Positions 12,298 to 36,174 of a DNA stretch of 36,174 nucleotides are shown here, piece by piece. The translations under genes and the position numbers were made by a program. The notes under the pieces were generated by a model. That model did not search any database, was not told the DNA's origin, and saw only the letters and a list, made by a program, of their open reading frames with translations. The DNA lies in NCBI GenBank assembly GCA_012516125.1, contig JAAYXB010000045.1:1-36174 (forward strand), read 5' to 3'. Each line of letters opens with the position of its first letter. The stretch's first letter is position 1. Origin of the DNA: Bacillota bacterium. GTDB lineage: Bacteria; Bacillota; SHA-98; UBA4971.

Positions 12298-12735
12298 ATG
12301 GAAGTGATCAACCTGGAAAGGCTCGAACAACAACTAAAGGCTCGTGGCTGCAAGCTGACCCGGCAGCGACGTGCGGTGCTCGGCGTTGTCGCCAAGACCG
12401 AGGGGCGGCTCGACGCGGCCCGAGTATGCGAAGACGCAAGAGCTGAATGCCCTGAGATCGGCCTCACCACGGTGTACCGCACCCTCGACATCCTCGCGGA
12501 CCTCGGCGCCCTCAGACGCCTGCATCTGCCTGACGGGTGCAGCAGTTACGCCACGGCGTCCCCCGGGCACCGCCACCATCTCATTTGCGTGGGGTGCGGC
12601 AGGGCCGTGGAGTTCGAGGGCTGCGACCTCACAGCCCTGGTTGATTCCGTAGCTTCGCGGACAGGCTTCGAGATCGAAGACCATTGGTTGCAACTCCTGG
12701 GAAGGTGTCCGGCATGTCAAGAAAGACGCCTCTAA
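12298..12735 (+). CDS. zur: Fur-family metalloregulator, probably Zur
   Basis: 145-residue repressor with an N-terminal winged helix (CKLTRQRRAVLGVV, TTVYRTLDILADLG) and a C-terminal dimerisation and metal-binding domain (HRHHLICVGCG). The two CxxC pairs (Cys97/100, Cys137/140) form the structural zinc site. Being first gene of a znu operon makes a zinc-sensing role more likely than an iron one. The start may be ATG 12298 or GTG 12304; the AGAGGGG at 12290-12295 is better spaced for the GTG. The znuA start lies inside its 3' end. Autoregulation through the upstream palindrome is inferred. Confidence 0.9.
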   Translation: MEVINLERLEQQLKARGCKLTRQRRAVLGVVAKTEGRLDAARVCEDARAECPEIGLTTVYRTLDILADLGALRRLHLPDGCSSYATASPGHRHHLICVGCGRAVEFEGCDLTALVDSVASRTGFEIEDHWLQLLGRCPACQERRL

Positions 12736-13709
12736 ATGAGAGTGCAGAGACTCTCCTGACTTTAGCCCCTGTCCTTGTCGTCGCGACTGTGCTGGCGGTA
12801 ATGCTTTCTGTGCCTATGGGCTCCCGCACCGTACTCGAGCCGTTATGCGAGGCGGCTTCAGGCAACACGGCGGCCGCCGACGCGGGCAAAGTGCGAGTCG
12901 TCGTGAGCATCCTGCCGCAGGCTTATTTCGTGGAGCGCATCGGCGGCGACAGGGTGGACGTGTCGGTCATGGTCCCACCAGGGGCGAGCCCACATACATA
13001 CGAGCCAACGGCCAGCCAGATGCGTGACCTCGCCCGCGCGCGGATGTATGTGCGCATCCGCGTCCACTTCGAGGAAGCGTGGATGCCGCGCATCGCCGCG
13101 GCCAACAAGAACATGCTGATCGTGGACTCGACCTCGGGAATCGCGCTTTCACGCGACGACGACCCCCACGTGTGGCTGTCCCCGAAGCTCGTGCGCGTCC
13201 AGGCCGAGCACATCTATCGCGGGCTTGTGAAGGTCGACTCGGCCAGCCGCGAGGTCTACGAGCGCAATAAGGAAGCGTTCCTCCGGGAACTGGACGCCCT
13301 GGACGAAGAGCTTGCCAGGGTCCTGGCGCCCGTGAGAGGCAAGCGCTTCATGGTGCTGCACCCCGCCTGGGGCTATTTCGCCAGGGACTACGGACTTGAG
13401 GAGCTGCCCATAGAGCTCGAGGGCAAGGAGCCAAGTGCGAGAGAGCTGGCGGCGCTCGTTGAGGCTGCAAAGGCGAATCGGGTAGAGGTCGTTTTCGTAC
13501 AGCCTCAGATGAACCCAAGGGCGGCCGAGGTGCTCGCGCGACAGATCGGCGCCCGCGTGGTGACCGTGGACCCGCTTGCGCGGGACTGGGCGGCGAACCT
13601 TCGCACCGTGGCGCGGACCCTCGCCGAGGCGCTGGGCGCCGGAAACGCCGACGGGCGAACGGACGCTCACTTAGCTACCGGTCCCCCGCATGGGATGGTG
13701 ACACTCTGA
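12714..13709 (+). CDS. znuA: Zinc ABC transporter, substrate-binding protein
   Basis: Exported cluster A-I binding protein (331 residues from the ATG at 12714, which has GGGAAGG upstream and lies inside zur). A hydrophobic segment near 14-35 serves as export signal; a Cys near 45 (EPLCEA) is a poor lipobox. The metal ligands are His94 (SPHTYEP), His152 (DPHVWLSP), His216 (VLHPAWGYFARDYG) and Asp286 (VDPLA), the 3-His/1-acid set of zinc/manganese SBPs. The long His-rich loop of many ZnuA proteins is absent. It delivers metal to ZnuB and ZnuC. Manganese cannot be excluded, but the Zur-type regulator favours zinc. Confidence 0.92.
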   Translation: MSRKTPLNESAETLLTLAPVLVVATVLAVMLSVPMGSRTVLEPLCEAASGNTAAADAGKVRVVVSILPQAYFVERIGGDRVDVSVMVPPGASPHTYEPTASQMRDLARARMYVRIRVHFEEAWMPRIAAANKNMLIVDSTSGIALSRDDDPHVWLSPKLVRVQAEHIYRGLVKVDSASREVYERNKEAFLRELDALDEELARVLAPVRGKRFMVLHPAWGYFARDYGLEELPIELEGKEPSARELAALVEAAKANRVEVVFVQPQMNPRAAEVLARQIGARVVTVDPLARDWAANLRTVARTLAEALGAGNADGRTDAHLATGPPHGMVTL

Positions 13710-14573: not shown

Positions 14574-15424
14574 TGTTGCAGGTCCTCCAATACGAGTTCA
14601 TGCGGAACGCCCTCGCCGCGGGCATCCTCGTCAGCGTGGCCTGTGGGATAATGGGCACCTACGTCGTGGTGAACAGGATCGTCTTCCTGGCCGGTGGGAT
14701 CTCGCACGCAGCGTATGGCGGGATTGGTCTCGGAATCTTCCTTGGCGCGAGCCCGGTCGCCGGGGCCGTGTCGTTCAGCCTCGCGGCCGCCCTGGCCATG
14801 GGCGTCGTGAGCAGGCGGGCGCGGCAGGGCGTGGACATCGCCATCGGCATCATGTGGGCGATGGGGATGGCCCTCGGCATAATCCTCATCGATATGACGC
14901 CCGGTTACTCGGCGGATCTCATGAGCTATCTCTTCGGCAGCATACTTGCGGTCCCGGGCAGCGATATCGCTCTCATGGGCGCGCTCGATGCCGTCATAAT
15001 CCTGGCCGTGGCCGTCCTCTACAAGGAACTCCTCGCCGTCTCGTTCGACGAGGAGTTCGCCTCGGTGCTGGGCGTGCCTGTGGAGCGGCTGTACCTCCTG
15101 CTTCTCGGCCTCGTCGCCCTCACGGCCGTCATGGCCATGCGGGTCGTGGGCCTCATCCTGACGATAGCCCTTCTAACAATCCCGGCGGCCGTCAGCCGCC
15201 AGTTCACCGCCCATCTGGGCAAGATGATGGCGCTCTCATGCCTCCTCGGGGCCGCGTTCACCCTCGCAGGCCTGTGGCTCTCGTACGCCTTTGACCTCAC
15301 CCCTGGGGCCACGATCGTCATGGTCTCCGGCGCCGCCTTCGCGCTCTCCTCGCTGTGCCGAGGCCTCAGACACCGAAAACCCGCTACGGCGGCGCCCGCC
15401 GCACCGTCGTCACGCCCGGCGTAG
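14570..15424 (+). CDS. znuB: Zinc ABC transporter, permease
   Basis: 284-residue membrane protein of the ABC-3 family with seven or more hydrophobic helices, starting MMLQVLQYEFMRNALAAGIL. GGISHAAYGGIGLGIFLG is the helix that recurs in this family as the SHA motif. It overlaps znuC by four bases and has GAGGAGGT ahead of it. The C-terminal Ala/Pro-rich tail is non-conserved. It completes the zur-znuACB operon; no clear terminator follows. Confidence 0.94.
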   Translation: MMLQVLQYEFMRNALAAGILVSVACGIMGTYVVVNRIVFLAGGISHAAYGGIGLGIFLGASPVAGAVSFSLAAALAMGVVSRRARQGVDIAIGIMWAMGMALGIILIDMTPGYSADLMSYLFGSILAVPGSDIALMGALDAVIILAVAVLYKELLAVSFDEEFASVLGVPVERLYLLLLGLVALTAVMAMRVVGLILTIALLTIPAAVSRQFTAHLGKMMALSCLLGAAFTLAGLWLSYAFDLTPGATIVMVSGAAFALSSLCRGLRHRKPATAAPAAPSSRPA

Positions 15425-21681: not shown

Positions 21682-21807
21682 CTAAGTGAGGGTGCGTTAA
21701 TTCTCGCCCCTCTCCCAGTAGTTGCCGGGTTGCCGGTGTTGCACTCTCTCTTTGGGTCACCGGCAACCCCTCCCAAAAGTCGGGAGCATTTCTGCACCCT
21801 CACTTAG
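21682..21807 (+). repeat. CTAAG element A: 126-base inverted-repeat element
   Basis: Perfect 14-base terminal inverted repeats: CTAAGTGAGGGTGC at 21682-21695 and its complement at 21794-21807. Inside is a hairpin in which GGTTGCCGGTG-type and CACCGGCAACC arms flank a short CTCTCTCTTTGGGT loop (about 21727-21767). It lies between the convergent radical-SAM and azlD genes; the stop codon TAA of azlD (21804-21806) is inside the right terminal repeat. I see no clear target duplication. Confidence 0.85.
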
Positions 21808-22160
21808 CACCCCGCACCCGCACCGATGCCCAGAGCCCGCAGAAGCATCACGCAGCCTATACCGACCACAACGGAAAGGAGCAGGCTCCTGGTCCGCGCT
21901 GCCACGATCAGCGTGGGCACCGAAGCCATGAGGTAGACGTTCCCGCTGTGGAGCGCCAGCTTGCCGTCGGCGACGAGGACGCTCGGCGCGGCAAGCGACG
22001 CAAGCACGGCCACTGCCACATACGAAAGCCACGTCCTGACCCATGCCGGCATCTGCTTGCGCGATAAGGCCAGAAGCGGCACCGCACGCGACAAATATGT
22101 TACAACAAACATGCCCACCACCATCGCGATTATGGCCGGCCTTACACTCAATGCGCACAC
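21804..22160 (-). CDS. azlD: AzlD-type branched-chain amino acid exporter subunit
   Basis: 118-residue membrane protein with about four hydrophobic segments: IIAMVVGMFVVTYLSRAVPL (near 9-28), WLSYVAVAVLASLAAPSVL, and a C-terminal pair. It matches AzlD, small partner of AzlC in efflux of branched-chain amino acids and their analogues. The start may be GTG at 22158-22160 or TTG at 22149-22151, better placed after TAAGGCGG. Its last codons end inside repeat element A. A second inverted copy (B) lies between it and azlC, whereas these two genes normally abut or overlap. Confidence 0.85.
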   Translation of the reverse strand: MCALSVRPAIIAMVVGMFVVTYLSRAVPLLALSRKQMPAWVRTWLSYVAVAVLASLAAPSVLVADGKLALHSGNVYLMASVPTLIVAARTRSLLLSVVVGIGCVMLLRALGIGAGAGC

Positions 22161-22246
22161 ACCGCCTTACCGAGCCTTACTACACTGTACCACATCTTAC
22201 CAGCGCCCGTCCCCGCAGCTAAGGCCCCCGTCGTTCAGCGGGTCCC

Positions 22247-22371
22247 CTGAGTGAGAGTGCAGAAATGCTCCCGGTTCTTGGAGGGGTTGCCGGTAACCCA
22301 GAGAGAGTGCTGCAACACCGGCAACCTACCAGTGGCTGGCAAACGGGGGACTAACCAACCCTCCATAAGGG
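22247..22371 (-). repeat. CTAAG element B: inverted copy between azlC and azlD
   Basis: It begins CTGAGTGAGAGTGCAGAAAT, matching the reverse complement of element A's right end, followed by AGGGGTTGCCGGTAACCCAG and GTGCTGCAACACCGGCAACC, the hairpin arms. The other end, AACCAACCCTCCATAAGGG, is a decayed version of element A's left end. It is orientated opposite to A and separates azlC from azlD by about 230 bases. Confidence 0.8.
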
Positions 22372-22387
22372 TTATTGACCCCCGGGA

Positions 22388-23137
22388 TTATGGACCCCGC
22401 GGCTCCGCCCGGCGTCTATCCAACGCGGCTCCGACCGAAGCCGCAACAATCGTCGCCACCACCGTAGCCCATGCGCGGAGCGGAGTTGCCGCCACGGCAA
22501 CCGCCAGCGCGCCCGCCACCACGGCCACCAGCAGCGCCACGCGGCTGCTCACCTGCATCACCAGGAGGCAGATGAACATCGCGGGTAACGCGAAGTCGAT
22601 CCCCAGCCTTGCTCCGTCCCCCACCGTGGACCCGAGCGCTGCTCCGACGAACGAGCTTGCGACCCACGCCGCGTACGACACGAAGTTGAGCCCGGCCACC
22701 TCACTCCAGTCCGCGGGCTCGTCTGCCGGGAACCTGCCCACCGCAACTCCGAACGTCTCATCCGTTATCCCGAATGAGAGGACCGCCAGCACGGGCCGAG
22801 AGAGGTGCCTCAGCCTGGATAGAAGGGACATGCTGAAAAGCACGTGGCGCAGGTTCACAAGAAGCGTCGTGCTCACCACCCCAACCGCCGTCGCGCCGGA
22901 GGACACCAGGCCACACGCAATGAACTGGGCGGAACCCGCGAAGACCAGCACCGACATTAGCGTTGCCTCGGCCGGCGAAAGCCCGGAGTGGCGGGCTATC
23001 ACTCCGTAGGCAAGCCCGATGGGCACGTATCCCACGACCACCGGAACTCCAAGCCTCGCCCCTCGCATGAATCTTACGATCGATCCACTGGTATCCCGTT
23101 TCCTACCGCGTGCCATGCTCCCTGCTTTGCTCCCCAT
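22388..23137 (-). CDS. azlC: AzlC-type branched-chain amino acid exporter subunit
   Basis: 249-residue membrane protein. GVPVVVGYVPIGLAYGVIAR, ATLMSVLVFAGSAQFIACGL, LVNLRHVLFSMSLLSRL and SFGITDETFGVAVG are characteristic AzlC blocks. ATG at 23135-23137 with TAAGGAG nine bases upstream; a second ATG lies seven codons in. It is expected to form a two-component exporter with AzlD downstream, despite the repeat between them. Confidence 0.92.
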   Translation of the reverse strand: MGSKAGSMARGRKRDTSGSIVRFMRGARLGVPVVVGYVPIGLAYGVIARHSGLSPAEATLMSVLVFAGSAQFIACGLVSSGATAVGVVSTTLLVNLRHVLFSMSLLSRLRHLSRPVLAVLSFGITDETFGVAVGRFPADEPADWSEVAGLNFVSYAAWVASSFVGAALGSTVGDGARLGIDFALPAMFICLLVMQVSSRVALLVAVVAGALAVAVAATPLRAWATVVATIVAASVGAALDRRRAEPRGP

Positions 23138-24096: not shown

Positions 24097-24309
24097 CTAA
24101 GTATGAGGTCATTAGTTTTCTCTCGTTTTCCGAGGTCTTGGGTTGCCGGTGATTGCACGAGGGGTGTCAAAATCCGGCCACTGACCAGACCGGCCGGATT
24201 TTGGCGAAGCGCACCCCGCTTGGGGCGCCGTCCCCGAGTGCAACACCGGCAACCCTGCACGGCGCGTGTGCTCCCTGGAACCGGCGATTACTTATGGCGA
24301 TCTACTTAG
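24097..24309 (-). repeat. CTAAG element C: long form with internal hairpin module
   Basis: About 213 bases from CTAAGTATGAGGTC to GCGATCTACTTAG, decayed terminal repeats. The main stem pairs GGGTTGCCGGTG (24140-24151) with CACCGGCAACCC (24244-24255) and continues TTGCAC/GTGCAA with one bulged A. Its loop holds an 80-base module with a perfect 12-bp hairpin, CAAAATCCGGCC (24168-24179) and its complement (24192-24203), then a CACCCCGCTTGGGG segment. It lies between the convergent ferritin-like gene and purA. The strand is nominal. Confidence 0.82.
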
Positions 24310-24337
24310 ATTCCCGCGCTCCTTTACCCGTTACCCC

Positions 24338-36033: not shown

Positions 36034-36174
36034 CTAAGTGAGGGTGCAGAAATGCTCCCGACTTTTGGGAGAGGTTGCCGGTGATTGCACGAGGGGTGTC
36101 AAAATCCGGCCACTGGCCAGACGGGCCGGATTTTGTCAAGGCGCCCCGCTTGGGGCGCCGTCCCCGAGTGCAAC
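36034..36174 (-). repeat. CTAAG element D: long form, cut by the window end
   Basis: An intact terminal repeat CTAAGTGAGGGTGC (36034-36047) leads to GGTTGCCGGTGATTGCAC and the same internal module as element C, with the CAAAATCCGGCC hairpin arms at 36100-36111 and 36124-36135. The closing CACCGGCAACC arm lies beyond the window. Bases 35872-36033 between E and D hold no supported gene. The strand is nominal. Confidence 0.85.

Follow-up and report, generated by a model that had tools for sequence, protein, structure and literature searches.

The azlD stop codon of a Bacillota genome lies within a probable IS630/Tc1-mariner-type MITE that targets CTAG

Two inverted elements around azlD

A gene that takes its stop codon from a repeated element raises the question of whether the element has altered the gene product, its expression, or neither. 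The azlD gene for a branched-chain amino acid transport protein (21804-22160, minus strand; Pfam PF05437 AzlD, E = 2.7e-26) is such a case in the window, by which we mean the whole stretch of 36,174 nucleotides analyzed (contig JAAYXB010000045.1 of the assembly GCA_012516125.1). The gene stands between two short elements, A and B, and its stop codon TAA (21804-21806, minus strand) is located inside the outer terminal repeat of A.

Element A (21682-21807, no strand assigned) is a copy of a miniature inverted-repeat transposable element (MITE) in the simple 126-bp form, which consists of C, the duplicated TA, AGTGAGGGTGC...GCACCCTCACT, TA, and G. Its terminal repeats, CTAAGTGAGGGTGC and GCACCCTCACTTAG, are perfect over 14 bp. 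Element B (22247 to approximately 22369) is a decayed MITE copy between azlC and azlD, inverted relative to A, and its azlC-side end is heavily decayed. The arms of A match those of B in inverted orientation, over 40 nt at 83% and over 33 nt at 88%, in agreement with the original prediction that real inverted elements surround azlD. In the azlD stop codon, the T and the next A are the duplicated target TA (21805-21806), and the element itself begins with the final A (21804), so that A supplies the stop, as had been proposed. The RNA fold of A has an energy of −60.6 kcal/mol against a shuffled mean of −37.7 (z = −6.3), and the decayed B gives a weaker fold. A T-run is absent 3′ of the hairpin, and an Rfam scan of the window at the gathering score gave no family for the elements, only three tRNAs being matched.

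The azlC gene (22388-23137, minus strand; Pfam PF03591 AzlC, E = 1.4e-40) has its own stop codon TAA (22388-22390), which is outside B at a distance of 18 nt. Here 227 nt separate azlC from azlD, while the corresponding gaps in the other five genus members are 48, 154, 17, 7, and 14 nt. This comparison bears out the predicted role of B in separating the two genes, the position of B being the junction where they usually stand close. The order and orientation of azlC and azlD are identical in all six genomes.

In the sister genome (G004), the A site is occupied too (TGC-TAA), by the compound form of approximately 200 bp, which is split across two contig ends. Since G004 shares A, the insertion at azlD is older than the divergence of these sister species. 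AzlD in G003 and G001 is element-free, stops with TGA, and is one residue (Cys) shorter, and the AzlD ends in G005 and G002 differ yet again. An empty CTAG allele of the azlD site was not seen among the genus genomes. Because the element-free relatives end one residue earlier with TGA, the extra Cys is not assignable to the insertion and could predate A. A difference in AzlD C-termini among relatives is thus found with respect to G003 and G001, and is not found in the sister genome, which has the same TAA; the claim that the insertion redefined the C-terminus is not sustained for azlD itself. B is missing from G004, where its site reads CTGG and the azlC frame continues approximately 13 codons further, through the B site. 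B is probably old, to judge from its decay, and may equally well have been lost from G004 or gained in the present genome.

Copy number and size classes of the A family

A search of its own genome (G000) with element A gave 44 matching places. The 14-mer end, with two or fewer mismatches, occurs 327 times in the genome, against 15 times for the reversed control; A is no chance repeat. Judging from the 327 end matches, the family has approximately 160 copies in this 3.2-Mb Bacillota metagenome-assembled genome (MAG). Every one of the six genus genomes carries the family, and the exact arm is also found in named records of uncultured Bacillota MAGs (MAG-64, UBA6811, and Yes71-24).

The copies belong to size classes of about 78, 126, 200, and 312 bp and have no coding content. 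The classes differ in the loop or in whether they contain an inner core, GGGTTGCCGGTG...CACCGGCAACCC, which is strongly conserved between outer families and occurs in other genera as well. The extra length of the 312-bp copy is due to another mini-element nested in its arm. All these features are those of MITEs: the copies are short and non-coding, have terminal inverted repeats, are dispersed at high copy number, and are present or absent with clean boundaries at orthologous sites in G004 and other relatives.

Target site and duplication

For 26 copies, the two flanks were joined with the element removed and used as queries against G004. Most of the sites recovered in G004 are filled in both species, and the interior size shifts at the same site (126 versus approximately 200 bp, 78 versus 200 bp, and 312 versus 200 bp). 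Four sites are empty in G004, with the junction CTAG in three of them and CTGG in one (L004). The filled sites read C-TA-AGTGAGGG...CCCTCACT-TA-G, while the empty orthologous sites read CTAG. The simplest reading of these junctions is a two-base duplication of TA within CTAG, which is the hallmark of IS630/Tc1-mariner elements; the duplication is exact at three sites, the CTGG site being the fourth. Two empty G004 sites, those of L004 and B, depart from the CTAG rule and read CTGG. Based on the difference between the empty CTAG and the filled C-TA...TA-G, we assign the A family to the IS630/Tc1-mariner-type MITEs; with the IS630 remnants and the lack of an IS5-type DUF4096 domain described below, this assignment is well supported.

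The target is scarce. In the sampled 420 kb, CTAG occurs 227 times, against 1900-2000 times each for CTTG, CATG, and GATC. The 227 occurrences comprise 119 in predicted genes, 92 in intergenic regions, and 16 at unoccupied stops.

Stop codons kept by insertion

An insertion at xxC-TAG gives xxC-TA|A.... Because of the TA duplication and the first base A of the element, TAG becomes TAA in place, so that the stop is unmoved and the protein is unchanged. Among 46 copies examined, 16-17 supply the stop of the neighboring gene at element positions 2-4, the other phases being rarer. When duplicates and one likely antisense frame were removed, 17 of the 24 frames entering element ends stop at positions 2-4 (p = 2e-4). 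Stops account for 16-17 of the 46 occupied sites, against 16 of the 108 unoccupied non-coding CTAGs (p = 0.005-0.009), though the size of this enrichment is uncertain, since it depends on a home-made gene caller and missed genes may have been counted as intergenic. Roughly 8 of the 282 predicted genes (~3%) in the sampled 420 kb carry element-supplied stops.

Twelve element-ended genes were traced in relatives, the gene names being judged by eye from the protein tails. The stop of L007 is CTC-TAG in G004 (empty), G003, G002, and G005, and CTC-TAA followed by the element in G000. C-TAG is also found at the same codon in element-free orthologs of L028 (two genomes), a mutS2-like gene (C79:12053, three genomes), an argR-like gene (C8:92346, one genome), and a uvrB-like gene (L029, one genome). 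Other orthologs end with a different stop codon at this position or close to it. The change from TAG to TAA at the same codon argues against the idea, put forward for azlD, that insertion redefines the C-terminus.

In G001 or G002, the orthologs of L013, L026, and the mutS2-like gene have a different MITE family (CTAAGTATGGCG...) at their stops, and the L007 stop is likewise filled in G001. Some stop codons have thus been struck independently more than once. A stop is supplied by a decayed A-family end in the window as well (12732-12766, plus strand), namely the TAA of a Fur-like gene (12298-12735). This end matches the consensus arm at 27 of 35 positions, whereas the best of 12 shuffles matches at 21. 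In the open literature searched, we found nothing matching stop-codon-preserving MITEs, which does not prove their absence.

Candidate mobilizer

Searches of the genus for IS630 transposases and DDE domains gave fragments only. Two IS630 transposase remnants, one in G000 (L155, 1440-1830; NCBIfam IS630, E = 1.8e-6) and the other in G005 (L149, 1530-2043; NCBIfam IS630, E = 8.3e-21), score below the curated cut-off. Both are flanked by CTAAGT ends, again within C-TA...TA-G, and the left end, CTAAGTAAGAGCGCATAAGTTTT, is similar to the ends of the third MITE family at the G001 and G002 stops. The remnants share only the outermost bases with the A family, and the subterminal bases too with a sister family. 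We found no autonomous element carrying exactly the AGTGAGGGTGC repeat, and none of the IS630 fragments has this repeat within 1.5 kb.

A near-complete IS630 in G015 (C2, L212, 1321-2463), a genome from another family of the class, scores 254 bits, over the curated cut-off. Its CTAAGTTA ends are 1143 bp apart, and it contains one in-frame TGA. Like the remnants, it has the CTAAGT ends but lacks AGTGAGGGTGC. This copy is a candidate relative of the autonomous partner. Pairs of terminal inverted repeats 0.7-2 kb apart were also sought in the sampled contigs; the two that were followed up enclose glycosyltransferase-like and ZnuA-like genes, not transposases.

Origin of the elements

We consider, with a probability of roughly 0.87, that A and B are non-autonomous IS630/Tc1-mariner-type MITEs that target CTAG, duplicate TA, and convert TAG to TAA in place at stop codons. 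The transposase that mobilized the A-family copies was probably of the IS630 family and is now either decayed in this genus or missing from it. The pile-up at stops may arise from the rarity of CTAG, with gene-internal copies purged by selection and a CTAG at a stop codon being harmless. At azlD, A is an old insertion at or beside the stop, common to both sister species, which supplies the stop codon along with a strong hairpin 3′ of the gene, and B is a separate decayed copy at the azlC-azlD junction. A is presumably neutral for azlD.

In the original prediction, the A/B pair could act as a functional switch, either inverting azlD or altering its transcription with respect to azlC, and A redefined the AzlD C-terminus. 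The inverted arms do bracket azlD exactly, B widens the azlC-azlD gap by approximately 200 nt over that in relatives, and the azlD stop is the TAA of A. However, azlD has a single orientation in the six assembled genomes, and the sister genome has A but lacks B. The arms are two diverged members of an ordinary repeat that is dispersed in approximately 160 copies, no recombinase was found among the neighboring genes searched, and insertions of the family leave the stop at the same codon. Inversion of azlD finds no support in these observations, and the switch is highly improbable. The same hairpins might instead be a domesticated RNA or DNA feature, such as a 3′-end hairpin, a terminator, or an mRNA stabilizer, selected at gene ends rather than neutral. 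Their great stability directly 3′ of stop codons, the many insertions common to G000 and G004, and the conservation of the inner core across outer families and into other genera would fit such a role, but the orthologous sites are polymorphic for presence and variable in interior size, the hairpin is followed by no T-run, and Rfam has no match. We therefore regard domestication as unlikely.

Another transposase could also explain the target. MITEPsy1, for which an IS5 affiliation has been tentatively proposed, inserts after CTAG (PMC3189936), and an IS5/IS427-type transposase able to target CTAG might thus have mobilized the copies. In the present family, however, the duplication is TA only, and the outer ends are common to the IS630 remnants. 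The DUF4096 domain, which is typical of the IS5/IS427 group, gave no match in any of the six genus genomes. An IS5/IS427-type mobilizer is accordingly very doubtful, and the IS630/Tc1-mariner-type reading is preferred.

Comparison with known systems

Elements that integrate at the 3′ ends of tRNA genes, and Tn7 beside glmS, target the 3′ end of a gene and leave its product intact. The A family also enters the 3′ ends of genes with the product intact, but it needs only the target sequence and its own first base, and neither a carried gene fragment nor a targeting protein. ISY100 inserts in TA and duplicates it (PMC2170065), and IS630 is described as preferring TA in CTAG (Tenzen and Ohtsubo 1991, as cited in PMC2170065). 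The A family is like them in the TA duplication and the CTAG preference, and the genus remnants share the CTAAGT ends and the C-TA...TA-G context. It differs in that its copies are 78-312 bp long and non-coding, and in an inner terminal repeat unlike the IS630 remnants found. In being short, palindromic, high in copy number, and mostly intergenic with TA ends, it resembles the Coxiella QMITEs, Correia/NEMIS, and the enterobacterial RU elements. Unlike in those bacterial MITEs, a large share of the A family replaces stops in place with the protein unchanged; a Coxiella QMITE2 copy lengthens a protein by 33 residues (PMC5896051).

A simple trick, the TA duplication combined with a leading A, allows a transposon to enter a gene end harmlessly. 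It has been used repeatedly in this genome, and some stop codons have been hit more than once. The same preservation of stops is predicted for other CTAG-targeting elements, and any IS630-rich genome would be informative. For annotators, such stops are in-place replacements and not truncations. More tentatively, and with somewhat less than an even chance, stops may be a general refuge for CTAG-targeting transposons, in which several MITE families of this lineage, each independently and more than once, take the stops of the same genes, with ~3% of genes using transposon-supplied stops and kept by selection, and the hairpin may shape mRNA 3′ ends.

Other elements in the window and related copies

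Another IS630-type MITE family is represented by a copy at 24097-24310 (no strand assigned). Its ends are CTAAGTATGAGG and CTAAGTAGATCG, and it has the inner core in common with the A family. The segment 24141-24260, considered as a lone inner element, was rejected, since it is the core of this second family bounded by CTAAGTA ends. A further genus has the second family as well (G007, 84%). A mini-element with the ends GAGACTGTTGA and TCAACAGTCTC sits at CTGCAC in the arm of A-family copies (L096 in C79 of G000, 14674-14985, and L014). Apart from the stop of the Fur-like gene, the decayed end at 12732-12766 is read in another frame as the N-terminus of a ZnuA-like protein, with a possible start ATG at 12714. 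A compound A-family copy (36034-36174, no strand assigned) is cut off by the contig end. Contigs also break inside compound copies in G004 (C81 and C113), and such compound repeats therefore lead to fragmented assemblies.
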